59,887 nucleotides of DNA from Ruminococcus sp. (GTDB lineage Bacteria; Bacillota; Clostridia; Oscillospirales; Ruminococcaceae). This document shows positions 13,676 to 34,836 of this stretch, one piece after another. The notes beneath the pieces were generated by a model that worked only from the letters and a program-made list of their open reading frames with translations, was not told where the DNA came from and searched no databases. Position numbers and translations under genes: made by a program. The DNA lies in the NCBI GenBank assembly GCA_017543335.1, contig JAFYGE010000004.1:1-59887 (forward strand), written 5' to 3'. Each line of letters starts with the position of its first letter. Positions within the stretch are counted from its first letter, which is position 1.

Positions 13676-13708
13676 CCATTTTTTGTCATATTGTCCATTT
13701 TTTGGCAT
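13676..13708 (+). repeat. Two 14-bp direct repeats upstream of the T7SS-like operon promoter
   Basis: CCATTTTTTGTCAT (13676-13689) and CCATTTTTTGGCAT (13695-13708) match at 13 of 14 positions with a 19-base period. They end 5 bases before the -35 box, a good place for a regulator. No known operator is recognised. Confidence 0.6.
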
Positions 13709-13713
13709 TTCTA

Positions 13714-13742
13714 TTGCATATTTGTAAGCTATGTGTTATAAT
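13714..13742 (+). promoter_or_regulatory. Promoter of the T7SS-like operon
   Basis: TTGCAT (13714-13719), 17 bases, TATAAT (13737-13742) with an extended TGT before the -10. It lies 67 bases upstream of the FHA gene, which has AGGAGG at 13794-13799. Confidence 0.78.
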
Positions 13743-13809
13743 TATACTGATTTTATATACTTGTTAATTATATACTTTAAGTCTTATATATTCAGGAGGT
13801 CTTTTCTGA

Positions 13810-15330
13810 ATGAATAATCTAAAGAAAATGTTTTCATTCAAAACGGTTTATTCCGAAAACAAAACCTTTCTCGTTTTTTCTATCGGAAGAAAAGAAGAGA
13901 TAAATTATTCACAGGTACAAATGCTTGAAAGTGATACTTTCCGCAGCTATTTCCTGCCTTTTCAATGCACTAAAACTGCCAGCACAAATAAAATCAGTTT
14001 CAATATAAGCGGTCTTACTTCACTATCAGAATACCTTAAAACTGAAATGAAACAGGAACAGTATTTTGAAATGATTGCCGGTATCCAGAAGATCATTTCT
14101 TTCTGCCAGAAATCCTATCTTTCCTACGATAACCTGATATGTGACCCTAAATATATGTACTATCACAATACCCTTAAAAGGATCATGATGATATATATAC
14201 CGCTAAAAAATCCGCACTACGTCTGTGATAATATCCCCAAATGCCTTAAAAAGCTCCACAATACTGCTAAAAGCGTTATAATCACTGACGGCAACTACAT
14301 GAATAAATACGAAAACTATCTTGCCCGATTCACAAATTCCGGAAACAAAAAAGGTACAAACTCTTTTTCACCTGATTCACTGCTGCATTTCTTCAACGAA
14401 AATGACGTAATAAACAGCAATAATCCTCCGCCTGCTCCTGTAAACTATGAACCGGAGCCTGTACCGGCACAGAACGATTTCTCTATAAACAGCCAGATAA
14501 TACCTGTTATCCCATCCGGAGAGCTCAATAACGATATACGCTCGCAAATGACCGGTCAGCAGGAACGCTTCGACTCTGATATTGAGAGGACTTCCAGTGC
14601 AACTGTAGTAAGGTCACGCAGAGATGAAGTCTCACTCACAGACCAGTCCGGAAATAAATTCGTTCTCCGCAACTTCCCGTTCACTATCGGCAGAAGCCGT
14701 GATAAAGACTTGGTTATCCCACAGAATACAGTTTCCGGTAACCATGCAACCATAACTTCCGAAAACGGCAGATACTTCATAAAAGACCATTCCTCCAACG
14801 GTACATACCTCAACGACGAAAACAACAAGATATCATACTGCGAGATAAACAACGGCGATAAGCTTTTCTTCGACAGCTTCTGCTACCTGTTCTCAGTCGT
14901 AAAGGCAAACAGCGGCAATGAGGAAGATGATTCTTCAAGAACTGTAATGGTTTCAAGAAGACGACAGCCTGAACAGCAGCAGCAGCCTGCTCCGGAAGCT
15001 CAGGCAGTCCAGTCTGCTCCGGAACCTAATGAAGTTCCTGCCGTTCAGGAAGCTCCGGAATCCCAGAAAGCTCTTGCTTACCTCAAACGTATCTACGATG
15101 ACCGTTTCATACGTATAATGCAGTATCCTTTCAGGGATGACGAGATCCCCGGCGTTACCTTCTTTACTGAGGTCGTTAACAACCGTACTGCTATATTCCT
15201 TGAAAATGTCTCCTGCGGCACACTTGTATTTGAAAACGCTCTCGTCGCAAAAGGAACAACAGTCGAGATCTTCTCAGGCTGTACATTATTCATAGACTGT
15301 GTAAAGTATACTTTCATAATCGAAAACTGA
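13810..15330 (+). CDS. FHA-domain protein with DUF6382-like N-terminus
   Basis: 506 residues, no signal peptide. Residues 1-175 match my recollection of the DUF6382 region that precedes FHA domains in Clostridia. A Pro-rich linker follows (205-235), then an FHA domain (283-365) with GRS (294-296), NHATI (311-315) and SSNGTYLN (328-335), the residues that bind phosphothreonine. Residues 425-506 look like a second, beta-rich domain without the FHA signature. Two near-identical segments flank the FHA domain: SSATVVRSRR (262-271) and SSRTVMVSRRR (375-385), possible kinase target threonines. It is first in an operon with a PP2C phosphatase and a membrane kinase, so a phospho-dependent adaptor role at the secretion machine is inferred. 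Confidence 0.88.
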   Translation: MNNLKKMFSFKTVYSENKTFLVFSIGRKEEINYSQVQMLESDTFRSYFLPFQCTKTASTNKISFNISGLTSLSEYLKTEMKQEQYFEMIAGIQKIISFCQKSYLSYDNLICDPKYMYYHNTLKRIMMIYIPLKNPHYVCDNIPKCLKKLHNTAKSVIITDGNYMNKYENYLARFTNSGNKKGTNSFSPDSLLHFFNENDVINSNNPPPAPVNYEPEPVPAQNDFSINSQIIPVIPSGELNNDIRSQMTGQQERFDSDIERTSSATVVRSRRDEVSLTDQSGNKFVLRNFPFTIGRSRDKDLVIPQNTVSGNHATITSENGRYFIKDHSSNGTYLNDENNKISYCEINNGDKLFFDSFCYLFSVVKANSGNEEDDSSRTVMVSRRRQPEQQQQPAPEAQAVQSAPEPNEVPAVQEAPESQKALAYLKRIYDDRFIRIMQYPFRDDEIPGVTFFTEVVNNRTAIFLENVSCGTLVFENALVAKGTTVEIFSGCTLFIDCVKYTFIIEN

Positions 15331-15346
15331 TACAGGAGCCAACAGT

Positions 15347-16129
15347 ATGTTTATTTATTCTTATGTCACTACTGAGGGAATTGTCAAGAAAGTAAATCAG
15401 GATGCTCTTATGATAAAAGTAGCCCGCCTTCACGGAAAAGAGATACTGTTCGCCGCAGTCTGCGACGGTATCGGAGGTCTTTCCGGCGGAGAGGATGCAA
15501 GCTCCTGCGTAATAAAGTCTGTGTCCGACTGGTTCGAGACAGAGTGTGCGGAGCTCATAAAAAACGACAGCGATATACTCGAAATAAGAACAAGCCTCGA
15601 TGAAAGACTTCATAAGATCAATGACGCTATAAACGATGAATGTGCAAGAGGACGGGAAATGGGTACTACATTCACTTCTCTCCTTATAGATATGATCCAC
15701 AATTCTGTACTTGTTGCCCATGTCGGTGATACAAGACTTTACAGGATATACGATAAAAAGCTTGAGATCATCACCTCTGACCATTCAATTGTTGCAGAAG
15801 AAGTAAGAAGAGGCATCATCTCAGCGGAATCTGCAAGATTCGATAAGCGTCAGAACCAGATAACCAACTGCATCGGTGCAGGAGAAACAGGCAGAATATA
15901 CGATTTTGCCATACAGTCCCCTGAGCAGAACTGCGTTTATATGCTCTGCTCTGACGGATTCAGAAAAATGGTATCACCGGAGGAACTGCATCAGACTCTT
16001 ATGCCTTCGGCAAATCCGGATCAGAACGCTCTGCATTCTTCCCTGAATCACCTCCTGAGCCTTAATATCGACCGAAAAGAAAGCGATAATATAACCGCTC
16101 TTGCAGTAATTCTTAAAGGAGATCGATAA
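15347..16129 (+). CDS. PP2C-type Ser/Thr protein phosphatase
   Basis: 260 residues, cytosolic. It has the metal-binding motifs of the family: VNQDA near the start, CDGIGG (39-44), HVGDTR, TSDHS, CSDGF and the C-terminal ESDNIT. It would remove phosphate from Ser/Thr on targets of the kinase encoded 3 bases downstream. The gene starts 16 bases after the FHA gene. Length fits the small bacterial PrpC/Stp class. Confidence 0.94.
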   Translation: MFIYSYVTTEGIVKKVNQDALMIKVARLHGKEILFAAVCDGIGGLSGGEDASSCVIKSVSDWFETECAELIKNDSDILEIRTSLDERLHKINDAINDECARGREMGTTFTSLLIDMIHNSVLVAHVGDTRLYRIYDKKLEIITSDHSIVAEEVRRGIISAESARFDKRQNQITNCIGAGETGRIYDFAIQSPEQNCVYMLCSDGFRKMVSPEELHQTLMPSANPDQNALHSSLNHLLSLNIDRKESDNITALAVILKGDR

Positions 16130-16132
16130 AAG

Positions 16133-17818
16133 ATGAGCACAAAAGCCAGACTTTTGGCAAATCGCTATGAAATAGAAAAAATTGCTGGTCGTGGCGGTAC
16201 ATCCGTTGTCTATAAAGCATACGATCTTCAGGCTGAAAGAGCCGTAAGAGCTATCAAAGAGATCAGCAAATCAAAATACGAAGAATACGATATGGCTAAG
16301 CAGGAATCAGCTCTCATAAAAGAACTCTATGAGGCTGACCAGTCTAACGCTTTCTTCCCGAATATCATCCACCGTTTTGAAACTGACCACTACTTCTATA
16401 TCGTTCAGGACTTCCTTGACGGCGAATCTATGGGATATATGCTCGAAGCAGGTCCTATGCCGTATAAAATGTTCATTGAGGCGGCTAAACAGATATGCTC
16501 TTTCATGAAGTTCTTCCACAGCACCGGACGTGTCCACAGCGATATGAAACCGGAAAATATCATGGTGCTTAAACCCGGAAAGACCATGCTCGATAACGAT
16601 GCGAAGATCAAGCTGAAATTCATAGATTTCGGTACAGCTATACGTAATGCTACCGGTGTTACCGGATATACTCCGGAATACGCCGCTCCGGAGCAATACC
16701 GCCAGTCTGAACTCGATGAACGTACCGATATTTTCAATATGGGTGCGACCTTCTTCCACATGATACAGGGAAGAAAACCACTTAAAGTCCACAGCGATAA
16801 CCGTATGCTCACAACTCAGGAAAGATTCAAGTTCGATAAGAATGTGAGTGCGGATATAAAGAGGATAATCCTCAAATGCGTTGCCGAAGACCCGAATAAA
16901 CGCTACCGCTCGTGCGACGCTTTATACAGAGACCTCTGCCGTGTTGAAAGACACTCAAATATCCGCTGGCTCTCTCTTTCAGCTTCACTCTGTATACTCT
17001 GTTTTGTCGCTGCCGGAATATCCTCGCATATGGCAAATAAGCTCGACAGACAAAACATAGCGGAAAAATACGCCTCCAACGTCAACAAAGGCAACTACGC
17101 CGAAGCCATAAAGCTCGATCATACCAACAGGGACGATATTTACTCTAAACTCATTCAGGACTTCACTCAGGACAGTAAACTCGACCATGATGAGGATAAT
17201 TTCATAATCAATGAGATAAAAAGTCCGGATTCTATAAAGTCAAGCGACAGCAATTACGGTAAATGTATGTATGAGATAGCCAACGCTTACTGGCTTTATT
17301 ATCTTCCTTTCGACGACAGTTCAAAAGAACATACCGAGCTTGAACTCGAAAAAGCAAGAATAAATGCCTCTTATGAATGGTTTGAAAAAGCTGTTTCCAG
17401 CAGCGACCTCAAAGAATCTATGCCGGACGCTTATAAACGTGCCCAGATATTCCTTAACATAGGAAAATTCTACATAGATATAGACCGCATGGAAAAAGAG
17501 GGTACTGACAGCTCGGAATTCTATACCGAAATGTGGGACAATGTCGAAGAAATGTCAAAATATATTGATGAATCCAACGAAGTGGTCAGCGTGCGTGTTT
17601 GCCAGACTCTTATGAGCCTTATTTCAAGGTATTCATCAAAGTTCCACCAGAACGGTGTTGAATTCAGAAGTCAGGAAAAAATAATCGATAAAATAAACAA
17701 AAAAGTCTATCTCAACGGCGAAATAAACTACAACAACGATTACGCAAGAAGTCTTGCGGAAAGCTTTGATATAGAGGCTGTGAGACTAAAGCTTGAGATG
17801 GCTTACGCTGATGAATAA
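16133..17818 (+). CDS. Membrane Ser/Thr protein kinase, EssB-like layout
   Basis: 561 residues. Kinase domain 10-270: glycine loop GRGGTSVV (19-26), lysine K42 in RAIK, catalytic loop HSDMKPEN with D137 (the R of HRD is S136), DFG at 165-167, APE at 185-187. One membrane segment lies at about 277-298 and is followed by a 260-residue outer domain rich in helices with TPR-like spacing. There are no PASTA repeats, unlike the housekeeping PknB/PrkC. This order (kinase fold, single membrane segment, helical outer domain) is that of EssB/YukC of type VII secretion, whose kinase fold is inactive; here the catalytic residues are present. The gene lies within a locus with EssC and WXG100 proteins. Confidence 0.93.
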   Translation: MSTKARLLANRYEIEKIAGRGGTSVVYKAYDLQAERAVRAIKEISKSKYEEYDMAKQESALIKELYEADQSNAFFPNIIHRFETDHYFYIVQDFLDGESMGYMLEAGPMPYKMFIEAAKQICSFMKFFHSTGRVHSDMKPENIMVLKPGKTMLDNDAKIKLKFIDFGTAIRNATGVTGYTPEYAAPEQYRQSELDERTDIFNMGATFFHMIQGRKPLKVHSDNRMLTTQERFKFDKNVSADIKRIILKCVAEDPNKRYRSCDALYRDLCRVERHSNIRWLSLSASLCILCFVAAGISSHMANKLDRQNIAEKYASNVNKGNYAEAIKLDHTNRDDIYSKLIQDFTQDSKLDHDEDNFIINEIKSPDSIKSSDSNYGKCMYEIANAYWLYYLPFDDSSKEHTELELEKARINASYEWFEKAVSSSDLKESMPDAYKRAQIFLNIGKFYIDIDRMEKEGTDSSEFYTEMWDNVEEMSKYIDESNEVVSVRVCQTLMSLISRYSSKFHQNGVEFRSQEKIIDKINKKVYLNGEINYNNDYARSLAESFDIEAVRLKLEMAYADE

Positions 17819-17828
17819 GGTGAGATAA

Positions 17829-18281
17829 ATGGATTCTAATACATGGCGTAATATATCTTATATACTTCTTATATCCGGTATCGTCTTTCTGATACTGACC
17901 ATTATTCTGGCTATTAAATTTCAGCTGCTATCTATGATAAAAGCTGAACTTAACCATAAAAAGAAAAAGACAAACTCAGATAACAGAGATTACTTTGAAT
18001 ATGTTGAAAACAAAAACAGAAACAATATCGAAGCTATCTCCGGCTCTGAACGTACAGGCTTCACTGAAAAAACAACAGCCGCAAGAAAAGCTGTTCCGCC
18101 GCCGGTAGTTGATGAAACTCCGGCAACGGTAGTTATATCGTCGGCAAAGAAAAAAGTGCAGCCTGCTAACATCGCCGCTACAGTTTTGACCAGACGAAAT
18201 ACTGAGCAGGATGAAAATGAATTCATAATAACCGAAAATATCATCGTTATACACGGTGATCCCGACATCGTTTCTGTCTGA
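17829..18281 (+). CDS. Small single-pass membrane protein with threonine motifs
   Basis: 150 residues. A short polar N-terminus, a hydrophobic segment (about 10-32) and a long charged tail, probably cytoplasmic since KAELNHKKKKT follows the membrane span. The tail has PATVVIS (T100) and AATVLTRR (T118), close to the SSATVVRSRR and SSRTVMVSRRR segments of the FHA protein; these could be phosphothreonine docking sites. It has no named family that I recognise. It lies 10 bases after the kinase gene and is likely a membrane partner or substrate of the kinase. Confidence 0.75.
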   Translation: MDSNTWRNISYILLISGIVFLILTIILAIKFQLLSMIKAELNHKKKKTNSDNRDYFEYVENKNRNNIEAISGSERTGFTEKTTAARKAVPPPVVDETPATVVISSAKKKVQPANIAATVLTRRNTEQDENEFIITENIIVIHGDPDIVSV

Positions 18282-18345
18282 TATACCGCAAACAGAAACT
18301 CGCTTATCAAATCATATATCACTTAAAGGGTGGGTGTATTTATTT

Positions 18346-21300
18346 ATGGAGCAAAAAAAACATATGCTTAGAAAGACCGCTGCTTTTGCTGCTGCACTTT
18401 CTTTTCTGTCTGCAACCAATCTGAACATATTGAATTCAGCTGCTGAATCATCAACTGTTAAAAAGCAGGCAATAGCTTCAACTGTAAAGGAGCTTAACAA
18501 TAATGTGTCATCTGCACAGTCAGAGCAGACCCCAAGTGCAGGCACTACAAAATCTACTACTACTACAACAACTACTACCAGCACAACTACCACTACAACA
18601 ACTACTGTACCGGTCACAAAGTCGGCTGAAATTCATGTAGATATTGATGTAAACGGCGATTTCAACACTAAAAATAATACTATAAATAATCTTACAGATC
18701 ATTATGCATCAGAACTGCAAAAAAATATTGCAGGTTTATCACCATATATTTCTGTCGGCACAAAAAGCAGCTCATGGATTGGCTATCCTCATGATACTGT
18801 CACCATTACTTATCCTGAAAAACTTGAAGGCACAATTAAGAATAGGATAAACAATTTAAAGGTCGAAAAAATTGAGAATGAAACATATTATGCATACGGA
18901 TATAGCATTGAACATGAACAGTGGGAGTATAAACGCTATTATAAACTTGACGACCATTCTGATTATGTAAGCTTTAATATCCCTAACACTAATTTAAAGA
19001 TAAAAGATAATGTCTCTTATGTCAGCGAGGACTATGAATTTTCAAACAACTCTTTCACTGTCGAAAAAAGAGAATATTATCTTGATGATTTCCACGGTAT
19101 AAAACCGACCGGAAAAGTTACACTAAATTACCTGACTATAAATCTTAACGGAAAAGACCATAAGGTAAAGGCAGCAAAAGTTACTATCAATATAAACCTT
19201 AAAAACTGCAACATTGACAATAAAGATAAAATGACCTATACATTTGAGTGGCAGGAATTAGGCTCGAAATATGTCACTATAACAGCTGATAATGCCAACA
19301 ATCTTATTATAAATGATAAATGGGATAATCCTACTAAACTAAACGGAAATAATGTTACTGCCTCACTTTTTGACTTAATAAAAAAATATACCGATTACTA
19401 TGCAGACACAAATACCGATCCGCTGCCTAAAAATGGTGATATCACCTTTAATATTTACGCATCACCAAGCGAGATAGGTGCTCAGCGTATATTCCAGAAT
19501 AGTAAAGGTGTAGAAGATACTTCATTAGAAGATACATATTCCTACAAGGTCAATCAGAATGACAAGATAACCGTTCCATATGTTGTTAACAAAAAAGGAA
19601 AAAATTACTACTTAACGAGAGAAAGATCATATATCCTCAAAAATGTCAACCTACCAGACACCGGTGAAGATTCTCCAAATCGTGAATATCTTTCATCAGA
19701 AACTTTTTCGGCGACAGAAATATGCAGCAATTTATTTTCAAATGACAGCCAAAGCTACTGTACTATAGATGCTCACGAGGATAAAAACAACTTTTTTGTT
19801 GAACTCCAATACAGAGAATTCCCGGATACAGAAAGTATAGATTCTGATCCTCTGATAGAGTTATTCGCAAACAGTCTGAACGGTACTATCAATGATGATG
19901 TTATCTTCGCAAAAAGACCTGCTCCGACCGGTGATGATAATAAAAGAACAATATCTTTAAATCTTCCGGGATATGCCGGTCATGAAATAATAATAGTGGA
20001 CGATGACAATAACAGCTCATCTGTAACGGTAAAGGCTGATGCAACTGATGCTGCTGTCGGAAAAGCTGTATATGAAGTTAAGGACGATACTAAATTCGTA
20101 AAAGTTGTCCTCGTAAAGAAGATCGGCAATAAAGACGTTCCTGTCGATACTCAGCCTTTCTTCGTCTACTTCGATGACCACCAGCCTGAAATTAAAATAA
20201 AAAACAATCCTAATAAATGGTCAAATGAAAATAATTACAAAATCGATTTCACTGTAAATGATGAGGACGACCTCTCTTCTGTGCATCCGCTTTTCTATGC
20301 AGATGCAGAAAAAATAAAGAAGCTCGAAGAACTAAAAGCTATCAAATATATCAGCATCCTCGAACAAAAAGGCCGTTCTGACGATCCGCTGATAACCTAT
20401 GAGCATAGATTCAATATCCCTGACGGTATAGATGATACGGTAGGTCAATATACTTTATCTGAAGCAGCATCTCAGGAAGGTAAAAATGAACTCAATGTAA
20501 AGCTCATAAAGCAGCTCGACGAAGACGAAAAGCCATATTTTACTGCCGAATTTTCTATGGCAGACAGTGAAGCCAAAGGTTACAGAGGTCATGTATATAT
20601 CTATGCAGCATCTGATTCCGGTATCCCTGAAAGCTTTGTGACCTCGGACAAAAAAACAGAACAGCAGGTAATGATCGATATCGCTGCCCCTACAGTTACA
20701 AGCATAACCGCAGCTGTTGAAGATAGTGACGAAAACATAGAAAAATATATAGAAAACGGTAAGAATATCAAGATAAAAGCTATAGCGACAGATAAATATG
20801 AAGACTATCCATACTGCGGTGTTGATAAGATAACCTATCACTTCAATGGTCAGGATATTATTAAAGAAAAAGATAAAATTAATGAAGAAGCAAGATTTAT
20901 TGTCAACACCGATAACTGTAACGATATTATAACGATAACAGCAAGTGACGGTGTCGGAAATTCTGATGTTTTCTATTACTGCAATGATCCGGAAAACGGT
21001 AATGTTACAAAGGATATATCAAAAGCTGAAAGAATAGTAGTTGATAACATTTCTCCTGCAAAGCCGGAATTAAAGGCAAAAAATGCCGATTACTCAGATA
21101 ATGGCAAAAACTGGTATAAAGAATATACAAATATACTCATCAAAGCAGAGGATGAAGGCGAAACCGCAAATATTTCAAACATAGCTGAACTCAGATTCAT
21201 TTTCAATAACATTGAAAAGAACATCACTGCTGCTGAACTTTGTGATCCGGATAATAACGGTTTCTCTTCAGCTGATATACTTGTAAGTGAACTCGCAAAA

Positions 21301-24300
21301 GAGGATTCCTGCTATCTGCACTTTGTTCAGGATGAAAATAACAGCTCAAGATACCTGCCATACCTCAGAGACAATAATTATCCTTCAGTAAATATCAAGC
21401 TCACCGATTCTCCTATTGATATTTATAATGACGGAAAATTTGAGTTGAAAATGAAGACCGTGGATAATGCCAAAAACGAAAGCGAATTTTCTTCTATAGA
21501 ATTCTTTATCGATAATAACGCTCCGACTTCCGACGGAATTTTTGAAAAGGGAAATGAAGAACACAGCGAAAATGTTGACGGCTCGATACATATGTATAAA
21601 TACGGTACTTTCAGCAACCACAGAATACAGATAAAAGTCCCTGTTTCTGACGGTCAGGGTACTGTACCTACATCAGGCTACCGTGACGCCTGCCTCACAG
21701 TAATCAAAAAAGACGGCTCTCAGGTATCATTCTTCTCTAAGAGATTTGACCATGATTCCGTTATCTTTGAACTGCCGGATACTCTGAATGAAAACGAAGT
21801 TTTCTCCGGCACTATGGAAATGTACGTTACCGATAATGTCGGAAACCGCTCAGTTTCAACTAAACTTGTATCACCTGAGCCTGACAGCAGCGAAGTTCTC
21901 ATACTCGAAAGAGTTGCTCCTGTTATCCCTGATGCTCCTGAGCTGAAAGGCAATGACCGCTATATAAACAGCGAAGGTCAGATATGGTTCAGCAGTGACA
22001 TTACTCTAAACTATAATATTTCCGATGCTGATTCAGGTCTTGCAAGAGTGAATATAGTGAGAACTCATGAGGGCGAAGCTCCTGAAGCTCATCTGACTAA
22101 TGAGTATATCCACAAAGCTGTTATCACACAGAGCAATGTCCATACTGCATCTACTGCTGACGGCAAAGACGGAAAATTCGACTTCAATGTCTACGCAGAG
22201 GACAACGCAGGCAACCGCTCGGAAAATTCATTCACTGTATATAAGGATACTTCAACACCTTATATTTACTCGTTCAGCTTCTCAGGACTTGTAAAGAACA
22301 GCGACAGCGAGATATGGTTCAATAAAGCTCCGGCTAAATACGGACACTTCCATAACAGCGATTATATAATGACCGTAACTGTAAAAGATGACCTCGGAGC
22401 AAGCTCCGGTATAAAGAATATTTACTGCGAGCTCTATAATGATGACGGTTCATTGTTCAGGTCTTATGTATTCGATGCTTCATCATTCAGAAGTACAGGC
22501 GAGGCTGATACCTATTCTGCTGATTTCATAGTACCTGAGGGATTCAAGGGCGATATAAGAGCATGGGCTGTCGATAATGTAGCTCATGAATCACAGAAAG
22601 CTTCACCTAACGGATTTATCTCAGAGAACAAAAATAATCACGATAACGCTTCATACAGCCATGTGACTATAACTCTGCCTTCAACTGCAAAACGTGATAC
22701 AAGCGGCAGACCTCTCTATAATCAGAACGTTGAAGCTAAGATAGAGATCACCGATCTGCACTCCGGTATCGAGCAGATACGCTGGAGAACTTCCGATTCT
22801 CAGAACTGGATGGACCTTAGAATAGACGCTAACGGAAATATCAGCGGAAACACTGAGGGCTGGGAAATACAGAAAAACGACAGGAATATCATCCAGAGCA
22901 TTTCTAAAAATATCATCGTATCAAAAGATGCTAACGACGATTTCATTCAGGTCGCTATGAAGGATAATTCCCAGAATATATCCGAAGCAGAGGCAAGATT
23001 CAGCATTGATAAGCATAAGCCTGTCATAGCAGTTTCCGGAATCGAAAAGTCGGATCAGGTAAAATATTACAACACCCATAAAACTGCTCATGTTGTTATT
23101 TCTGAGCGAAATTTCGATTCTCCTTCTGTAAACGGAACTGTAGATACAAGATTTGCTGACGATAATAGTACTGATAAGAATTCAGACCAGTTCAGACATA
23201 CAAGAGACCTTCCATTCAATTCCGACGGACGTTACAACCTTAACATAACTGATACTGACCTCGCAGGAAATACCTCAGATACCTATGCATCCGGTACATT
23301 CGTTATCGATACTATTGCTCCGAAAGCATCTGTAACTGTAAGAAAAGACGACGGAGTCATAGTTGCAAACGGAAAGAATACCTACATTGAAAGTCCGGCA
23401 CAGGCAACTGTAGTTATCGATGAAGTTAATTTCGACCCGAATCTCGTCAGCATAACCATAAACGGCAAAGCGTTCGCACCAAGCGGTTGGAGCGGTACAA
23501 ATTCTCATTCCGCTTCTATTCCTGTAAGCTACTTTACAAATGACGGCTCATACACTATCTCTGTATCCGGTAAGGACCTCGCAGGAAATACTCTGAAAAC
23601 TACTGCCGTTTCGTTTACTGTAGATAAAAAAGAGCCTGAAATAAATATCACAGGCGTATCCTCAGCTAATAAGGACACTGTTGCTCCTGTTGTCAATATC
23701 AAGGACAGCAACCTTGATTCTCAGAACGTAAAAGTATACAGAAATGGTCAGCCGCTGAAGCTCACTACAGAAAATAACGGTCAGACAGCTAAATACGATG
23801 TCGACGGCAGCGGCAGCTTCATCACTGCTAACTGGGTAGAGGAAAAGGACAACAAGGATATCAAAAAGAAACTCGTATTCGATAACTTCCCGACTGATGA
23901 GGTTTTCGACGGCTCTTACAGAATTGAAGTTGAAACTGCTGATAAAGCTGAAAACACATCTTCTGAAAAGCTCGAATTTACTGTAAACAGACACGGCTCT
24001 GTATTTGCGGTGCAGAATGCGGAGGATATAAACGGAAAATATCTCAATAAAGCTCCAACTATCGTCATAACAGAGCGAAATGTAGACAAGCATAACTCCG
24101 ATTCTGAAATAATCATAATAGTCGATAAGGGCTCAAATACAGTAAAGCTCACAGGCAGTCAGTATGAAGTTTCCGAGCCTGTAGCTTTATCGGATAATTC
24201 AGGATATGAGTACACATACACTATCCTTCCGGAAGTATTCGATCAGGACCTTAACTACAACATCTCTATACAGTCAGTCGACGCTGCCGGAAATAAGAAC

Positions 24301-27017: not shown

Positions 27018-27039
27018 TTCAATGTAAAGGAGTGAGATA

Positions 27040-30000
27040 ATGCTTCTTATTACTTTTTTGCAGAACGAATTTATAAACACAACTGTTCTGCCCGATAAGA
27101 AAAAAGGTCACTATAAACTCAATCACGGCATAAGCAGCCTGACAGAGGATATAAATATCGACGGTATCGACAATAAATGGATAATATCCGGCGGTACGGA
27201 ATACAGCATATACCGCTATTCAGATGACGATAATGCCGAGCTCGTACAGCAGGCTGAGCTGACAAGTGACGATGTGCTTACTATAGATATTGCCGGTACA
27301 AGATGTATCCTTATAGTCGAGACTATAAAAGATGAGAAAAACCGCTTCAATAAAATATGCTTCAATAATCCTTCTTCTCAGAAATTCAGTATCGGAAAGA
27401 AAAGCGACAACGATATAGTCCTCGATGATACATATATATCCGGTTATCATGCTCTTATATCCAAAGAAAACGGAGTATGGAAGGTCACCGACCGTCAGAG
27501 CAGAAACGGTACTTATGTAAACAACCGCAGAATAGACGGTGAACACGAGCTTAATATCGGTGATGTAGTTTTCATCGTCGGATATAAATTCATAATCTGT
27601 GCCGACTTCATAGCCGCTAATATCGATTTCGATAAGAACGTAAAAGGAAGCGGTCTGAGCAAAGTTGTATTCCCTAAATTTGTACGTCCGGTCAAGAAAA
27701 GCGAAAGTCATGACGACTATTTCTACAGAACTGTCGACCTCGGAGAAAAAGCTCCGGAGCTGCCTGAAATAAAGCTTCTTCCGCCTGAGCATATGCATAA
27801 GCTTGACGAACAGCCTGCTATACTCAGTATGGGACCTGCAATGACAATGAGCACTGCTACAGTCCTCGTATCCGGTTACTCCGGTCTTGCCGCATATTAC
27901 CGTGGCACAAATATATCCTATGTAGTACCTTCTTTTATCATGGCAGGAAGCATGGTGCTTTCATCTATGATGTGGCCTAATCTCCTTAGAAAACGCCGCA
28001 AAAAGGTACAGAAGAAAAACGAAGCTCAGCGTATAAAAGAATATCAGGACTATATCATGGACCTGAGAGCTGCTGTAAACGTAATGCTCGATAACGAAAA
28101 AGAGTACCTATGCAAAAAATCACTCACCGCAGAGCAGTGCCTGACAAGAGTAATAAACCATGACCGTTTCCTGTGGAGCAAAAGTATCAACGATGAAGAT
28201 TTCCTCAGTGCTGCAATAGGTACCGGAAAAAAAGAATCCCAAATAACGGTAAAGTACACCGAAGATGCTGACACTTTCTTCAAGGACGACCTGCGTTATG
28301 ACATGATGCAGTTTGCTCACGATGAAAGGATACTCTACGATGTGCCGATAACTATATCGCTCAATAAGGGCTGCATATGCGGTATCAGCGGAGAAAAAAC
28401 TGCTGCATATGACCTCATCAAAGAGATAGTAGTACAGCTTACTTCACTGTACTCATATGACGAGCTGAAGCTCATCTTCATTTGCGGTGAGGACGAGGCT
28501 GAAAAATGGGACTATGTAAAGTGGCTTCCGCATACATGGAACAGCGAAAACTCTTTCAGATACTTCTCATCCTCTGCCGATGAACTGAAAGAACTTGCTG
28601 CCGAGCTTGAAAAAGAGATCGATAACCGTATGACTCACCCACAGAATGATTTCCCGAAAATGCTCGTTATCGCCTCTAACAAAAAATATATGGACAGCCT
28701 TGATATCATGTCCGTGATAATGAAGAACAGAGAATCACTGAATATAAGCATACTTACAGCGTTCGGAATGTACAACTATAACAATTCAAATATCATAATA
28801 GAGATATCCGCCGAGGGTGCTAAGGTCTATGACCGCAAAAACAGCGATGTATCTGAATTCAAGCCATATACAGTGCCTACTGCATTTGATTCACCTGTTA
28901 TAAACTTTGAAAATTATCTCGATTCTATATCAAATATAAAGCTCGATATAACCAACGAAAAATATCAGCTCCCTAAGATGATAACATTCCTTGATATGTT
29001 CAAGGTATCTAAAGTAGAGCATCTGAACAGCCTTACAAGGTGGGCTGAGAACAATCCTATAAAGTCGCTTAAAACTGAGATAGGTGCATCACCGTCCGGT
29101 GACGTTTTCTTCATCGATATGCACGAAAAATATCACGGTCCTCACGGTCTTATAGCCGGTACTACAGGTTCAGGTAAGAGTGAATCTATCATCACCGTGA
29201 TACTCTCACTTGCAGTAAACTACAGTCCGGAGGAAGTCGCATTCGTTATCGTCGACTACAAGGGCGGCGGTCTTGCCGACGCTTTCAACGATGTCAAAGA
29301 AGAAGTTATAGACGGCAAAACAGTTGAGGTAAGCTATAAGCTCCCGCACGTTGTGGGCACTGTTACAAACCTCGACGGCTCAACTATCGAAAGAGCCTGC
29401 ATATCCATTGAGACTGAGATCAAACGCCGTCAGATACTTTTCAAGAAAGCACGTAAGATCTCCAACGAAGGTACTATGGATATTTACAAGTATCAGCAGC
29501 TCAGACGTGAAGGTGCCGACCTCGAAGTGCTCCCTCACCTATTTATAGTTTGCGACGAGTTTGCTGAGCTCAAAGCCGACAGAAGCGACTTCATGGACCT
29601 TCTCGTAAGTGCGGCACGTATCGGACGAAGCCTCGGTGTACACCTCATACTCGCTACACAGAAGCCGGACAGCGTTGTAAGCCCTCAGATATGGAGTAAC
29701 TCACGTTTCAAGATATGTCTTAAAGTTCAGGGAAAAGAGGACAGTAAGGCTGTTATCCAGTGCCCTGACGCTGCCGAAATATCCACTACAGGACGTTTCT
29801 TCTTCCAAGTTGGATACAACGAAGTTTTCAGCATGGGACAGTCTGCATGGTGCGGTGCAGATTATATCGAAGCAGAAGATTTTGTCAAGAGTGATATAGA
29901 GTCCGCTGAGGTCATAGGCAATACCGGAAATATCATTTACGAAAAAGTGAGAAAACCCGAAATAAAAGTAAACAAGAACAAGCGTACAGTTTCTCAGCTC

Positions 30001-31731
30001 ATAGCTGTAAGAAATTACCTTATAGATATTGCAAAGGATATAGATGTAAGACCACTATGGCTCGACCCTATCCCTGCGAAGCTCTCTCTCAAAGCACTCT
30101 ACAGCGAGCTCGGCGAGCGTAAATACAGGGACAATTACGTGCCGCTTGACCCTGTTATCGGTAAGCGTGACGACCTGTACAACCGTATTCAGGAGATAAT
30201 GACAGTGCCGTTCTCTGAGAAAGGAAATCTCATAATTTACGGAGCTGCCGGAAGCGGACTTGATATGTTCTTCATTTCCTTTGTTTACTCTCTCATCTAT
30301 GCCTATAATGCAGAACAGGTAAATATCTATATACTTGATTTTGATGCAGGATTCCTTAAAGTATACGACAAAGCTCCGCAGGTCGGAGATGTTGTGCTCG
30401 CAGAAGAAGAGGAGGACGTAAAGAACATTATAAGCTCCGTAAGTGATGAGATAAACAGAAGAAGCAAGCTCTTCTCGGAGTACAGAGGTGAATATTCAGA
30501 ATACTGCAAGTACTCCGGAAGCACTCTGCCTAACATCGTGCTCATCCTCAACAACTACACTGCCTTCATGGAGAAATTCAACGAGGCAATAACATCTCAG
30601 CTTATATTCATCGCAAGAGAAGGCGTTAAAAGAGGTATATATGTCGTTATCGGAACTCCTTCTATAAATACCAATTTCCGCCTGAGACAGTATATCCAGC
30701 AGACTTTTATGCTGAAAATGAACGATGTAAACGATTATGTCGGAGTACTCGGACGTACCGGCGGTATCACTCCTTCCGACTGTGCAGGAAGTGGTATCGT
30801 CAAAGAGAGCGATATAACATATAAATTCCAGACCGCCGATATTTTCGATATTATCCCTTCAGATGACGAATCCGACGAAGTTATCCTCGATTCCGCTAAG
30901 GAGATAAGAGACCTCTGCGAGAACATCAATAGAAACTGGAACGGCAGGTCCGCACAGTCATACAAGCAAATAGAGGTCAACGCTGAAAATGTACTTTCCG
31001 AAAGCATATCATGGAAAAACGTACCGCTCGGAACAGTAGATGAGACCGTCTTTACCTATGATATGAGCGATAAGTACATAACATTTGTCTCATCTGTTTC
31101 TGAAAATCAGCTTACACGTTTTGCCGGATATATCACAAAGGCTCTTGCTAAGGACGACTCTATATCTGTAGTTCTGCTCGACAGCTCCGGAGAACTAAGA
31201 CCGGATGAAGATGTAAATTATAAGTATTACTCAACAGTTGAGGAGTTCAATGAATGGAACAAATTCTACAAAGCAGATGCCGAAGCAAGATGCAGTAAAC
31301 TGATAAGAAATGAACAGGGCGAGATAGTCATGAGCGAGGACGCTAAACACGTATACGTCGTGATAAACTCCTTCCAGAAAGCTTCAAAAATAGCCGATCT
31401 CAACGTAACATTCAATAACTTCAAACTCATTATCAACGAACTTCCTGAGGTACACTACCACTATGTTATCCTTGACACTGAAAATAATATGAACGCCGAC
31501 AGAGGTGCGTATGTTCATATCGTCAAAAACCTTGAAGATATTACTTCTCTTGAGAATTTTGACACTGAAAATAACAGAGAATGGTTCGATGCTTCAGGTA
31601 TATGGCTCGGCGGAAGCTTATCCCAAAACGGATTATTTACTATTGAAAACTCACTTCCTATGCTGACAGAAAGTGAAGCAGTTTTAATAAGAAATAAGAA
31701 CGCTGAGAAGAAATTCCGTTATTTCGGATGA
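27040..31731 (+). CDS. essC: Type VII secretion ATPase EssC (FtsK/SpoIIIE family)
   Basis: 1563 residues, the usual EssC size. N-terminus: an FHA-like domain (about 115-190) with IGKKSDNDIV and SRNGTYVNNR. Two membrane spans lie at about 265-312. The first ATPase domain has GTTGSGKSES (Walker A, about 707) and LPHLFIVCDEFAEL (Walker B, about 830). The second domain has GAAGSGLDMF near 1067, where the P-loop Lys-Thr is missing, and the third (about 1330-1500) lacks a P-loop. Active D1 with degenerate D2/D3 is seen in many EssC proteins. It drives export of WXG100 substrates across the membrane. RBS AAAGGAG precedes the ATG. Confidence 0.95.
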   Translation: MLLITFLQNEFINTTVLPDKKKGHYKLNHGISSLTEDINIDGIDNKWIISGGTEYSIYRYSDDDNAELVQQAELTSDDVLTIDIAGTRCILIVETIKDEKNRFNKICFNNPSSQKFSIGKKSDNDIVLDDTYISGYHALISKENGVWKVTDRQSRNGTYVNNRRIDGEHELNIGDVVFIVGYKFIICADFIAANIDFDKNVKGSGLSKVVFPKFVRPVKKSESHDDYFYRTVDLGEKAPELPEIKLLPPEHMHKLDEQPAILSMGPAMTMSTATVLVSGYSGLAAYYRGTNISYVVPSFIMAGSMVLSSMMWPNLLRKRRKKVQKKNEAQRIKEYQDYIMDLRAAVNVMLDNEKEYLCKKSLTAEQCLTRVINHDRFLWSKSINDEDFLSAAIGTGKKESQITVKYTEDADTFFKDDLRYDMMQFAHDERILYDVPITISLNKGCICGISGEKTAAYDLIKEIVVQLTSLYSYDELKLIFICGEDEAEKWDYVKWLPHTWNSENSFRYFSSSADELKELAAELEKEIDNRMTHPQNDFPKMLVIASNKKYMDSLDIMSVIMKNRESLNISILTAFGMYNYNNSNIIIEISAEGAKVYDRKNSDVSEFKPYTVPTAFDSPVINFENYLDSISNIKLDITNEKYQLPKMITFLDMFKVSKVEHLNSLTRWAENNPIKSLKTEIGASPSGDVFFIDMHEKYHGPHGLIAGTTGSGKSESIITVILSLAVNYSPEEVAFVIVDYKGGGLADAFNDVKEEVIDGKTVEVSYKLPHVVGTVTNLDGSTIERACISIETEIKRRQILFKKARKISNEGTMDIYKYQQLRREGADLEVLPHLFIVCDEFAELKADRSDFMDLLVSAARIGRSLGVHLILATQKPDSVVSPQIWSNSRFKICLKVQGKEDSKAVIQCPDAAEISTTGRFFFQVGYNEVFSMGQSAWCGADYIEAEDFVKSDIESAEVIGNTGNIIYEKVRKPEIKVNKNKRTVSQLIAVRNYLIDIAKDIDVRPLWLDPIPAKLSLKALYSELGERKYRDNYVPLDPVIGKRDDLYNRIQEIMTVPFSEKGNLIIYGAAGSGLDMFFISFVYSLIYAYNAEQVNIYILDFDAGFLKVYDKAPQVGDVVLAEEEEDVKNIISSVSDEINRRSKLFSEYRGEYSEYCKYSGSTLPNIVLILNNYTAFMEKFNEAITSQLIFIAREGVKRGIYVVIGTPSINTNFRLRQYIQQTFMLKMNDVNDYVGVLGRTGGITPSDCAGSGIVKESDITYKFQTADIFDIIPSDDESDEVILDSAKEIRDLCENINRNWNGRSAQSYKQIEVNAENVLSESISWKNVPLGTVDETVFTYDMSDKYITFVSSVSENQLTRFAGYITKALAKDDSISVVLLDSSGELRPDEDVNYKYYSTVEEFNEWNKFYKADAEARCSKLIRNEQGEIVMSEDAKHVYVVINSFQKASKIADLNVTFNNFKLIINELPEVHYHYVILDTENNMNADRGAYVHIVKNLEDITSLENFDTENNREWFDASGIWLGGSLSQNGLFTIENSLPMLTESEAVLIRNKNAEKKFRYFG

Positions 31732-31738
31732 AAAAATG

Positions 31739-31804
31739 GTGGATTTTCACAGCAAAAAGAGTGGATTATCTCAGCAATAAAAAGGGTAAAAAACAGCAAA
31801 AAAA
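31739..31804 (+). repeat. Three tandem 22-bp repeats (iteron-like)
   Basis: CAGCAA occurs at 31750, 31772 and 31794, exactly 22 bases apart. Units 1 and 2 (31739-31760, 31761-31782) share GTGGATTnTCnCAGCAA; unit 3 keeps the CAGCAA half. The array starts 8 bases after the essC stop and lies about 110 bases before the WXG100 promoter. Tandem 22-bp direct repeats are the classical form of Rep binding sites. Confidence 0.7.
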
Positions 31805-31913
31805 TTTTTTAGCCTCAAAATTTGCAGATATACCGTGAATAATTGGGCATCCAAAATTTAAAATAACTAAAATTTTAACTCGTGCATTTTTAAAATACCC
31901 CAAAATGCAAATG

Positions 31914-31922
31914 TGGTATAAT
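31914..31922 (+). promoter_or_regulatory. Extended -10 promoter of the WXG100 pair
   Basis: TGGTATAAT, an extended -10, with no good -35 at 17 bases. The WXG100 genes thus likely have their own strong transcript, with AGGAGGAA before the first ATG. Confidence 0.65.
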
Positions 31923-31988
31923 GTATTCAACAAAGCAAGAGATGCTTTGAAAACGATCAAATTTATTTATTAATAGGAGGAATTTAAA

Positions 31989-32309
31989 ATGGCAGGCAAT
32001 TCAATTCGTTACAGTGAAGGTACAGATTCCATCATAAACACTGCAGCAGCTATCTCTGAGCTCGGAGATGAATTTTTCAACGAGTACACACAGCTTTACA
32101 ACTTAGTTGAAGGCGAGCTTTCAAACGTTTGGAAGGGCGAAGACTCTGACGCTTTCAAGAACAAGGTTAACGAAGAAAAGCGTTACTTTGAAACAATGAG
32201 AGACATCATCAACGAGTATGCTACTTTCCTTCGTAACACAGCTAATGCTCACGAAGCTCGTATGGAAGACAGCAGAAGCCAGGTTGATTCAAACTGTGCT
32301 TTTGATTGA
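31989..32309 (+). CDS. WXG100-family type VII secretion substrate
   Basis: 106 residues, no signal peptide, all helical. The central turn is VWKGEDSDAF with W48-K49-G50, the WXG motif between two amphipathic helices. ESAT-6/EsxA-type proteins form helical hairpin dimers exported by EssC. The ribosome site AGGAGGAA is strong and the gene has its own promoter, fitting high expression. It pairs with the similar-size gene 65 bases downstream. Confidence 0.92.
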   Translation: MAGNSIRYSEGTDSIINTAAAISELGDEFFNEYTQLYNLVEGELSNVWKGEDSDAFKNKVNEEKRYFETMRDIINEYATFLRNTANAHEARMEDSRSQVDSNCAFD

Positions 32310-32373
32310 TCTTAACTCAGACACAAGTAACTGAATTATAATAGAATAATCGTTTTTTAGGAGGAATATTACC

Positions 32374-32688
32374 ATGGCTAACAAAGAATTGTTCGTAAAC
32401 CCAGAAGAAATCAGAAGCTGCTCTAATCAGCTCACTACTTACGCTGATCAGATGAAAGATACTCTTGACAACCTCGTTGTAAAGATGGACAGCACAGAGG
32501 CTTTATATCAGGCACAGAGTGCTACAGATATGAGAGACAAATTCACAGAGCTCAAGCCTCAGTTTGAAAAGTTCACAGCTTACGTTAAGAAGGTAGCTAC
32601 ATACCTCATTCAGAACGTTGCAGAGCCTGCTGAAGTAACAGACCAGGTTGCTTCTCAGAATGTTGCAAACATAAAGAAGCCTCTCTAA
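32374..32688 (+). CDS. WXG100-like partner lacking the WXG motif
   Basis: 104 residues, helical, no signal. It has the WXG100 length and hydrophobic pattern (EEIRSCSNQLTTYADQMKDT helix, a turn, then DMRDKFTELKPQFEKFTAYV), but the turn reads LYQAQSATDM, with Y45-Q46-A47 where WXG is expected. WXG100 heterodimers such as EsxA/EsxB-type pairs often have one degenerate partner. TTAGGAGGAA precedes the ATG. It is probably co-expressed and co-exported with the gene before it. Confidence 0.8.
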   Translation: MANKELFVNPEEIRSCSNQLTTYADQMKDTLDNLVVKMDSTEALYQAQSATDMRDKFTELKPQFEKFTAYVKKVATYLIQNVAEPAEVTDQVASQNVANIKKPL

Positions 32689-32708
32689 TAAAAACTCATG
32701 ATACAGTA

Positions 32709-32753
32709 TGCCGGATACGGTCATTTAACCGAAATAAAATGACTGTTCCGGCA
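32709..32753 (+). repeat. Imperfect 45-bp inverted repeat between WXG100-like and lipoprotein genes
   Basis: TGCCGG (32709-32714) pairs with CCGGCA (32748-32753) and GTCATTT (32720-32726) pairs with AAATGAC (32737-32743). There is no T-run after it, so it is more like a transcript-stability or partial attenuation hairpin than a full terminator. Confidence 0.6.
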
Positions 32754-32787
32754 AAATCAACAATTAAATATTTAAAGGTGGTTTAAG

Positions 32788-34836
32788 ATGATATTTAAAC
32801 GTGTAATATCAGCGATGACTGGTGCCGCCTTGCTTACATCTTATATGTCCGTTCTTTCCGGATGCAGCTTGAAGGAATTCTTCAACAATTCCAGCTCAAG
32901 CACATCAGAGTCCAAAGCTGATGACGGAGTTCTCACAAACGGTGAGTGGCTTTCAATGGTCAATGATGCATTCGGTATGCAGGTCGACGAAGAAGCAGAA
33001 GACGGTGAACTTGATGCAGCAAGGGATTGGGGAGTTATCGGTGAAAGTGAAGAAATCGACAAGAATGCTCCTGTAGATGATAAATTCGTTACCACTACTT
33101 TGATGAGAGCAGCCGGATTTGCTGATGAGAATTCTACTGACGAAGAGGTCATCAATGCCGCTATCGAACACGGCGTTCTGAAAGATCCAAATACTCCTCT
33201 CACTGACCCTGAAGCAGCTGCTGAGTCTCTTATCAAAACTCAGGACGAATGGGCTAGTCAGGAATTTGAAGAGCATCGTAACGTTGAACTCGTAGAAGGA
33301 GTTCAGAACTTTGACGAAAAACTGAAAACTACAGATTTTGAGATCAAAGACGATTTTATCGTACTCCCGACAGAGTACGCTCAGACTCTTACCAAAGACA
33401 GCGTATTTATCCTTCCTAAGGATGATGAAACCGGCAAGGGCGGTGCCTATAAGGTAGTTGCTACTGTTGATAACGGCAACGGCACAACAAATGTTAAGGG
33501 AGTTGCTGCTAAGCCAGAGGAAGTTTACTCAAAACTTGATATTTCCGGTAGATTCGACGCTGATCTTAGCTCTTTTGAACCAGCAAATGATCCAAGAATA
33601 ACTGTCTATAATGGACAGTCTACAGGCGTATCTTATAACGAACCTAATAATTTTTCTATTAAACCTTTAAGCTATACCGGCTATGATAATGATGAAGGAA
33701 TCAAGGAAATGGCATCTGTTGGTGTTAAATCTATCGATTTCGGAATCGATCTAGGCGAAGGTATGAAAATTAACGCAACTGTTCGTGATATTTCACTTAA
33801 TACAGATGTTGACTGGGATTTCGGTGTATTCTCAGGACTTGATATAAACAGAGTATATATGGCTCTTGATTATACTTCTGAGGTGTCGATCGAACAGGAA
33901 CTCTTTAATGCTGATCCTGATGAAAAGCTTCAATGGGAAAAATTCCTTGCAAGAAAATACGTTGACGAACCGGAAATTGAACTTGGTAAAGTCGCTGTAT
34001 ATATCTGCCCGGGAATATCTGTAAATTTCAGAGTTAAATTCTCCCTTGAAGCAAGCGGAAAACTTACACTCTCTCTTGCTACTACAAATACAAAGGGATT
34101 TGAACTTAAAGGTTCAAACTTCCGTTCTATAAACAAGACATCCAAGAGTGCTGAAATAGTACTTTCTGGTGAAGCTGGTGCTTACATGACTTTGACTCTC
34201 GCTTTAAGTCTTGATTATGTTATCGGAGTATTAGACCTTCTCAGCCTTAACCTCAAGCTTGGTCCTACAGCTAAGGCAGAAGCTAAGATACACTCTCAGG
34301 AAGGCAAAGACGATATGCTGTGTCTGGATATCGGAGTTACATTTAAGATCGAACTTAAACTGATACTAATGGAACAGATAATGGAAGCCTTTGATCTGGA
34401 CGCTTCATTGACGCTGATAGATGAGGATCTTCCACTCTGGACACGACATTTTGAGAACCTGAAGCAAGTTCCTAAGTGTACAGCTGATGAAGAGGCTACT
34501 ACAGAAGCTGTAGAAACAACAACTATCCCTGTAGGCAGCTTTGAGTTAGCTGATGCATATGTTTCCCTCGAAGTAGGTCAGTCAGGAAGAATCGGAGTTA
34601 AATCACTTCCTTCCGGAACTTCTGTAAATGACCTCGTATGGTCTTCAAGCGATACATCCAAGGTAACTGTTGACCAGAACGGTAATATACAGGCAGTTTC
34701 AGGCGGTACTGTCAGCATCACAGTTAAAACTAAGGATGGAAAGAGTACAAGAACCTGTGCTGTTAACGTAAAATCAAAAGTTAACCTCGCAGACAATGCA
34801 GGACAAAATAATTCAGTACAGCTTTTAGCTGCATGA
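32788..34836 (+). CDS. Lipoprotein with SLH-like N-region and C-terminal Ig-like (Big2) domain
   Basis: 682 residues. Signal peptide with lipobox LSGC and lipid cysteine C26. Residues about 48-160 (LTNGEWLSMVNDAFGM, AARDWGVI, EVINAAIEHGVLKDPNTPLT) follow the pattern of degenerate S-layer-homology repeats that bind wall polymers. A long beta-rich middle has no family that I know. Residues about 600-665 (VGQSGRIGVKSLPSGT, LVWSSSDTSKVTVDQNG) are a Big2-type Ig domain. It would be anchored outside the membrane. It follows the WXG100 pair without its own clear promoter and ends at a strong terminator, so it is probably part of the secretion system or a partner of the secreted proteins. Confidence 0.82.
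   Translation: MIFKRVISAMTGAALLTSYMSVLSGCSLKEFFNNSSSSTSESKADDGVLTNGEWLSMVNDAFGMQVDEEAEDGELDAARDWGVIGESEEIDKNAPVDDKFVTTTLMRAAGFADENSTDEEVINAAIEHGVLKDPNTPLTDPEAAAESLIKTQDEWASQEFEEHRNVELVEGVQNFDEKLKTTDFEIKDDFIVLPTEYAQTLTKDSVFILPKDDETGKGGAYKVVATVDNGNGTTNVKGVAAKPEEVYSKLDISGRFDADLSSFEPANDPRITVYNGQSTGVSYNEPNNFSIKPLSYTGYDNDEGIKEMASVGVKSIDFGIDLGEGMKINATVRDISLNTDVDWDFGVFSGLDINRVYMALDYTSEVSIEQELFNADPDEKLQWEKFLARKYVDEPEIELGKVAVYICPGISVNFRVKFSLEASGKLTLSLATTNTKGFELKGSNFRSINKTSKSAEIVLSGEAGAYMTLTLALSLDYVIGVLDLLSLNLKLGPTAKAEAKIHSQEGKDDMLCLDIGVTFKIELKLILMEQIMEAFDLDASLTLIDEDLPLWTRHFENLKQVPKCTADEEATTEAVETTTIPVGSFELADAYVSLEVGQSGRIGVKSLPSGTSVNDLVWSSSDTSKVTVDQNGNIQAVSGGTVSITVKTKDGKSTRTCAVNVKSKVNLADNAGQNNSVQLLAA

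Follow-up and report, generated by a model that had tools for sequence, protein, structure and literature searches.

The window analyzed here is a 59,887-nt stretch of DNA from a Ruminococcus sp. (assembly GCA_017543335.1, contig JAFYGE010000004.1, positions 1-59,887, forward strand), and it carries a type VII secretion system (T7SS) locus in which a plasmid-type pair of replication genes is accompanied by tandem iterons placed before the WXG100 genes. The locus is a T7SSe-type system, with a layout that largely matches this known type and with strict membership incomplete; T7SSe was defined by Garrett, Higginson and Palmer in 2024, and its component list, as given in the main text of that paper, is largely that of the window operon (PMC11217815). 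A preliminary description of this DNA had listed genes for an FHA protein, a PP2C phosphatase, a membrane kinase, a small membrane protein, a giant immunoglobulin (Ig)-like protein, an orphan, a Rep-like protein, a YukD-like protein, EssC and a WXG100 pair, and all of these open reading frames (ORFs) were indeed found on the plus strand with short gaps between them. It had missed that the Rep-like and orphan genes form a plasmid replication pair and that an iteron array, at 31732-31797, lies before the WXG100 genes. The features of the locus are as follows.

13810-15330, +: DUF6382 and FHA protein, TseJ-like; ATVVRSRR and RTVMVSRRR motifs flank the FHA domain
15347-16129, +: PP2C/PPM phosphatase, TseF-like
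16133-17818, +: membrane Ser/Thr kinase with transmembrane (TM) segment, TseD-like; AIK, HSDMKPEN and DFG motifs intact
17829-18281, +: small membrane protein, TseH/TseK-like; one TM helix and a tail with T-V-[LV] motifs
18346-24741, +: giant Ig-like envelope protein, TseI-like, with a signal-like start and a TM segment at the C-terminus
24755-25687, +: P0006, the "orphan", a helical protein
25684-26658, +: P0007, homologue of Rep_3/RepB-family plasmid replication initiators
26766-27017, +: YukD/EsaB-like protein, TseB-like; the ORF runs from 26679, with 26766 the likely start (many relatives have 83-88 aa)
27040-31731, +: EssC ATPase with N-terminal FHA domain, TseC-like
31732-31797, +: three tandem 22-bp iteron-like repeats
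31861-31878, +: conserved AT box, AAATAACTAAAATTTTAA
31912-31922, +: extended -10 element, TGTGGTATAAT, with no clear -35
31989-32309, +: WXG100 protein A1
32374-32688, +: WXG100 protein A2
32788-34836, +: lipoprotein-like secreted protein with a Big_2 domain

By its Rep3_N domain and near full-length homology, P0007 can be classed as a member of the Rep_3/RepB initiators. It aligned with RepB of the Streptococcus plasmid p29887 over 294 columns (hhalign 99.8%, E 5e-29) and with two Smac51 plasmid proteins at 84-92% coverage (tblastn E 5e-36 and 2e-29). Searching 72,556 plasmids with tblastn gave nine records, six with at least 80% query coverage (best E 5e-36) and four annotated as RepB family plasmid replication initiator; the 50,697 phage records gave two matches, both partial, and no relative of the P0007 family (hereafter REP) was confirmed in viral contigs. 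Rep3_N was found at E ≤ 0.1 in 13 of the 14 family members (best 6.9e-6), and P0007 had no PDB profile match at E ≤ 1.

The P0006 profile in turn matched the gene immediately preceding rep on p29887 (E 7e-15), on pSMQ308 (E 2e-15) and on a 4.1-kb contig of the relative G046 (E 1e-17), with E values against the plasmid upstream genes calculated for a database size of 10,000; handles beginning with G denote relative genomes and those with L relative loci or stretches. P0006 and P0007 overlap by 4 bp here, and the corresponding genes by 8 bp on p29887, pSMQ308 and Smac51 p_unnamed2; on Smac51 p_unnamed1 they lie 2 bp apart, with no overlap. The P0006 model was helical and of good quality (pLDDT 82.7). 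A reading of P0006 as an EspG-like chaperone was dropped in favor of that of a plasmid partner: the model matched no PDB fold at E ≤ 0.001 (best E 1.6), and among PDB profiles nothing scored below E 0.13. As far as homology can tell, the "orphan" and "Rep-like" genes are thus a plasmid replication pair, a feature new relative to T7SSe. The T7SS-linked P0006 family has an invariant C-x3-C...C (14/14), a motif of which the C-x3-C is absent from three plasmid-type homologues; that P0006 might sense metal or redox state is a guess.

REP was found in 11 of 60 genomes of the genus, nine at E < 1e-180 that all carry EssC and two divergent ones, G046 and G055, without an EssC match. Among 394 genomes of the order, REP occurred in the own genome only; P0006 was found there and in the distant genomes G633 and G643. 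The 20 T7SS regions taken from 14 class genomes contained no ORF with a REP profile match at E ≤ 1e-3, and L093 had a weak P0006-profile match (139 aa, E 3e-4). Two genomes of the same taxonomic order have a distant 276-aa P0006 homologue (L131 9114-9944 and L132 4274-5104) followed by a 368-aa protein, which in L131, the one tested, had no significant REP match. The G046 contig (L129, 4141 bp) encodes P0006-like and RepB-like proteins and has a 22-bp repeat in 4.9 copies; it is likely to be a small plasmid of Ruminococcus, related to the ancestor of the module.

The iteron array starts immediately after the essC stop codon, in the gap between EssC and the WXG100 genes. Using the expression GG N7-8 CAGC repeated at 21-23 bp, we found one triplet in the window, against no triplets and 0.035 pairs on average in 200 dinucleotide shuffles, and one array in the own genome. 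The T7SS iterons have a period of about 22 and an A-run before GG...CAGC, with A in 29-33 of 34 matches at positions 1-4, the GG and CAGC being fixed by the search itself. Three of five rep-bearing plasmid-type stretches carry 22-bp tandem arrays, including p29887 (4.1 copies, AAAAGCATATAATGCGAACAGC) and Smac51 p_unnamed1 (5 copies of a 22-bp repeat). Tandem iterons, an AT-rich region and a Rep gene, the sequence marks of an iteron replicon, are all present here, and what precedes the WXG100 genes is, judged by its letters, a plasmid-type iteron array.

Downstream of the iterons, the geometry is strict. The AT box pattern AAATAACTAAAATWTTAA matched 33 of 163 loci, every one a stretch of a REP-carrying genome; the box is exact in 12 of the 14 elements, with one N in L041 and one mismatch in L044, and lies exactly 38 bp before the start of TATAAT in 14/14, the TATAAT being preceded by TGTG and then A, C or G. 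Three strict iterons were present in 11 of the 14 elements, starting relative to the AT box at about -121/-99/-77 in the clade of the window and at -111/-89/-67 in that of R. flavefaciens FD-1, a shift of about 10 bp. All 14 elements lie 5' of WXG100 genes, in 13/13 REP-carrying sources whose contigs cover the region; these are 13 of the 14 T7SS loci with REP seen, G011 being left out (the L045 contig ends within P0006, before REP). The element also accompanies WXG100 genes that do not immediately follow essC, as seen in G020, in G017 and for the second pair of R. flavefaciens 007c. Iteron chains among the loci compared were restricted to REP-carrying T7SS loci and one pair in L016, of the own genome, and no pieces of the element were found in viral contigs. 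In 007c (L040 1621-3590), a minus-strand iteron pair faces a lipoprotein-like gene in divergent orientation; it and the array of the second WXG100 pair stand back to back.

From these observations we consider it probable, if well short of certain, that a plasmid replication module was captured by a T7SSe-type locus and now works as a transcription switch for the esx genes, next to a system of phospho-docking; in other words, that in Ruminococcus of the rumen and gut, as we would rather believe than not, RepB, its upstream partner and the iterons were domesticated into a transcription switch devoted to the T7SS. P0007, probably with its plasmid-derived partner P0006, would bind the array of three 22-bp iterons in the essC-WXG100 gap, and the iteron-bound P0007 together with the AT box would activate the extended -10 promoter that lacks a clear -35, thereby switching on the WXG100 pair and the lipoprotein gene. 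The homologies, the iterons, the fixed geometry, the co-presence of REP and element with their joint absence in one nested lineage (see below) and purifying selection support this proposal at the level of sequence, from which we infer DNA binding by P0007, activation rather than repression, a part for P0006, and phospho-docking.

The same DNA could also be read as an intact plasmid replicon within the T7SS locus that still fires, with iterons and AT box as its origin and the locus amplifiable or excisable; the initiator pair, the 22-bp iterons and the AT-rich DNA are after all conserved. An origin would, however, be expected to stay with rep and would have no need of a fixed promoter distance, yet the element sits at the WXG100 promoter with the 38-bp spacing kept in every case, is duplicated in 007c and lies on a contig separate from rep in G020 and G017. 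DnaA-box-like 9-mers (one mismatch) occurred in only 6 or so of the 14 elements, at varying places, and the setting is chromosomal, with a 1.41-Mb contig in G002 and BirA and SpoIID flanks in the window. We regard such a replicon as quite unlikely, the least probable of the explanations weighed here. An activating switch is favored instead: the spacing to the promoter is constant, the element goes with the WXG100 genes, and in G049, where REP and element are both missing, a consensus promoter takes their place.

Ratios of nonsynonymous to synonymous substitution (dN/dS) were compared in two species pairs. Between the window and G001 (11 genes, yukD excluded), REP had the lowest value, 0.020, with 0.028 for the kinase, 0.067 for EssC, 0.069 for P0006, 0.22 and 0.16 for the WXG100 proteins, 0.25 for the giant protein and 0.30 for the small TM protein. 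Between G002 and G026 (9 genes, A1 saturated) the values were 0.057 for yukD, 0.065 for REP (second lowest of 8), 0.085 for EssC and 0.130 for P0006, all rough since dS was near or above 1 for most genes. By these ratios REP is under purifying selection. This bears on the idea of an ordinary T7SSe in which the orphan/Rep pair is the passenger of an old plasmid integration and an unrelated regulator binds the conserved promoter. The largely matching T7SSe component list and the presence of the locus without the pair in G049 would agree with a passenger, but REP is the slowest-evolving gene in one species pair and the second slowest in the other, REP and element are jointly present or absent wherever both are visible, and the iterons resemble those of two RepB plasmids; we find a passenger improbable, at hardly better standing than the embedded replicon.

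One relative inside the REP clade, G049, lacks both REP and the element. Its EssC is 61% identical and the operon is present, with nothing between the giant gene and yukD; in this 90% complete assembly REP was absent, the gap between EssC and the WXG100 genes lacked the element, and the genome as a whole gave no iteron pair. The EssC-carrying, REP-less G058 and G039 likewise gave no match to the pair. In a quick EssC tree with SH-aLRT support only, made of relatives from the present searches, G049 fell within the REP clade (of 44 rows 12 carried REP, which took two changes, a number as low being reached in 0/500 shuffles). One gain and one loss of REP is the simplest account of this history, and two gains are possible. 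The G049 gap contains two TATAAT sequences, the first with TTGACA at 17 bp (6/6 -35 matches, seen at 10 of 5000 random sites) and the second with 4/6. Such a consensus promoter is expected after the loss of an activator, and it speaks against REP being a repressor under which the WXG100 genes would stay silent until it is released by a signal. Autorepression by Rep_3 proteins is established for plasmids, and by that analogy a repressor would draw on the same element and conservation data; the iterons, however, start about 120-180 bp before the -10 and do not overlie it. We hold repression to be unlikely, although a shade less so than the two explanations discussed above.

Several observations weigh against the proposed transcription switch. 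G049 is a single lineage with an incomplete assembly, in which P0006 was looked for at the locus only; none of four other REP-less loci had a consensus -35, with TATAAT within 300 bp only in L095 and there with 2-3 -35 matches. At the -35, the 14 REP-linked promoters agree with the consensus at 2-4 positions, as random sites do. Fixed spacing may partly reflect descent, as the promoters are homologous, and iterons with AT-rich DNA equally resemble an origin; neither in front of the main operon nor in front of rep were iterons seen. Only two strict iterons were found in 3 of the 14 elements (L041 with Ns, L044 and L047), and the iteron chain search missed L044. In a genome-wide search of 20 chosen genomes the iteron pair matched 14, comprising 8 of 9 REP carriers and, as background, 6 of 11 REP-less genomes, against 1/20 for a reversed control pattern; the pair alone is not specific because these REP-less genomes match it, mostly with GC-rich sequences without A-runs. 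The exceptional REP carrier, G011, had no exact iteron pair in its assembly, and its EssC contig stops within essC. Among the plasmid-type stretches, pSMQ308 and Smac51 p_unnamed2 (two of five scanned) had no 22-bp array, the repeat on the G046 contig differs in sequence, and the P0006 profile did not match the two Smac51 upstream genes significantly (E 0.16 and 33). Finally, the Rep3_N match of P0007 itself is barely above cut-off (22.7 vs 22.4), and its structure model is poor (pLDDT 50).

The phospho-control that the preliminary description had also suggested is plausible from intact kinase motifs and T-V-[LVI] repeats, with phosphorylation itself being a prediction from these. Kinase catalytic motifs were found in 9/9 rows, in the window protein and in the near-identical L037 protein. 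TsdH and TseK have been described, in the main text of the T7SSe paper, just as one TM helix and a short unstructured cytoplasmic region (PMC11217815); the small TM protein here has a TM helix at its N-terminus, followed by basic residues and a tail containing T-[VM]-[LVIM] motifs. This pattern, chosen after inspecting the sequences, occurred one or more times in 16/16 rows (13 distinct proteins) and more often than in shuffled tails in 14 of 16 (P < 0.025); the two FD-1 rows had one motif each (P 0.14-0.15). The L044 protein has five copies of DGATVLTSRK, that of L043 NTVLAPQQ repeats, and the corresponding protein of the distant G351 repeated ATMVL motifs. The FHA protein carries such T-V motifs after residue 165 in 8/9 rows. 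A strict FHA expression matched EssC in 7/11 rows and missed four, including FD-1 and 007c; the EssC of the window has GK in place of the usual GR. The repeated T-V-L/V motifs are possible phospho-threonine docking sites for FHA domains: the kinase/PP2C pair would set their phosphorylation in the small membrane protein and the FHA protein, and the FHA domains of the latter and of EssC would dock on them, leading to assembly of the machine. For the kinase, phosphatase and FHA components that T7SSe and T7SSj have in common, they provide a concrete hypothesis of substrate and docking.

We also examined the claim that this is a variant of type VII secretion in which the kinase, small membrane protein and giant protein replace EssB, EssA and EsaA. 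As claimed, EssA, EssB and EsaA were not recognizable: EssB was not found in the own genome, the one searched, EssA was above cut-off in 0/8 genomes (best sub-threshold E 0.011), and EsaA was found in 0/8 at E ≤ 1. All absences in the own genome are bounded by its assembly completeness of only 85.9%. A T7SSb with hidden EssA, EssB and EsaA was rejected on these negative profiles, all EssA matches lying under cut-off, and so was DUF6382 as a disguised EssB, its profile having no PDB profile match at E ≤ 10. The replacement itself was not borne out by this DUF6382 result or by the sub-threshold EssA matches (E 0.016 and 0.085, the latter in G020) of a ~330-aa membrane protein that most relatives have and the window lacks. 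A T7SS combined with a kinase, phosphatase and FHA module is supported here and is not new, T7SSe having already been described, in the main text of its paper, with largely this layout (PMC11217815).

The gene order, suggested earlier as something to compare among relatives, was largely the same in other species and not confined to one strain. EssC relatives were found at E ≤ 1e-60 in 12 of 60 genus genomes, the own genome included, and at E ≤ 1e-80 in 31 of 391 genomes of the class. P0006 relatives occur in 14 genome records (12 Ruminococcus, among them R. flavefaciens FD-1 and 007c, one Clostridia bacterium and one Oscillospiraceae bacterium), and these show, contig extent permitting, largely the order J-F-D-small TM-(~330-aa)-giant-orphan-REP-YukD-EssC-WXG100-WXG100-lipoprotein. 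Since the order is largely conserved and no essA, essB or esaA was found, neither of the two outcomes named beforehand as contrary, such genes elsewhere in the genome or an order unique to one strain, was seen. Variations do occur: the ~330-aa gene is missing from the window and G001, EssC lies 5' of YukD in the FD-1 clade, the reverse of the usual order, the J-to-small-TM half of the operon is inverted in L046, the kinase, small TM and giant genes of 007c are on a separate contig with a second FHA/PP2C pair, and the WXG100 genes of G020 and G017 are on contigs other than the main locus. The more distant G351 has FHA, PP2C, kinase and small TM genes near an EssC. The ~330-aa gene between the small TM and giant genes (L038 2625-3701, L039 2572-3627, L043 2652-3650, L048 2853-3857, L049 2824-3795 and L050 2782-3753) encodes a surface protein with a signal-like start, a domain that by eye resembles cohesin, a T/S-rich stalk and a C-terminal TM segment; the four tested had no Pfam match above cut-off.

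As for the remaining parts of the window locus, EssC exceeds the TIGR03928 cut-off (832 vs 778 bits), the Pfam match of the YukD-like protein is under cut-off (E 0.026) with size and position agreeing with TseB, and those of A1 and A2 to WXG100 are slightly under it (E 1e-5). In the giant gene a GTG at 18256 opens the frame, and we take the ATG at 18346 as the likelier start. Genes on the opposite strand, BirA (12583-13602) and SpoIID (34879-35919), bound the operon. The Big_2 lipoprotein gene lies 3' of the WXG100 pair in most relatives whose contigs cover the region, and its lipoprotein-type signal, as read from the protein, argues for Sec export over a role as T7 substrate. No LXG substrate was recognized in the incomplete own assembly, and beyond the pair no WXG100 match there was better than E 0.097. 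Position 13676, where the preliminary description had begun, belongs to the first copy of a direct repeat, CCATTTTTTG[TG]CAT, present twice at a distance of 19 bp in the promoter region of the gene that opens the operon (13676-13708, 13732-13742); another extended -10, TGTGTTATAAT, lies directly 3' of the repeats at 13676-13708, which among seven relatives compared were present in G001 only. At 58229-59881 the window encodes a BspA-type leucine-rich-repeat protein carrying a type I dockerin, which suggests cellulosome-type surface attachment in this strain.

Since the likely regulator, the sites to which it would bind and the geometry of the promoter can all be read from the sequence, the regulation of a system other than T7SSb becomes directly testable; a replication initiator running a chromosomal secretion promoter would, if true, be an unusual hand-over from plasmid to host. 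Compared with known systems, the locus shares EssC, a putative YukD-like protein and WXG100 proteins with the T7SSb (Ess/Yuk) of S. aureus and B. subtilis, whose EssA, EssB and EsaA were not found here. With T7SSe, as its main text has it, it shares an EssC with FHA domain, a putative YukD-like protein, two WXG100 proteins, a membrane kinase (TseD), a PPM phosphatase (TseF), a DUF6382-FHA protein (TseJ), a small single-TM protein, a giant Ig-like protein (TseI) and the absence of EssA, EssB and EsaA; T7SSe, however, has two small single-TM proteins (TseH and TseK) and the window one, and the window adds the P0006/P0007 pair and the iteron element, the words 'replication', 'iteron' and 'Ruminococc' having 0 occurrences in the main text of that paper (PMC11217815). 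T7SSj, according to the same main text, has in common with the window a kinase, a phosphatase, a DUF6382-FHA protein, a giant Ig protein and a single small TM protein, but one WXG100 protein instead of two (PMC11217815). With the Rep_3/RepB plasmids (p29887, S. thermophilus pSMQ308 and those of Smac51) the window pair shares initiator homology and overlapping genes (in 3 of 4), with the streptococcal ones also a homologous upstream gene, and with p29887 and Smac51 p_unnamed1 22-bp iterons; unlike in those plasmids, the pair here is chromosomal and within a secretion operon, and the iterons are three imperfect copies located at the WXG100 promoter, 5 kb from rep.

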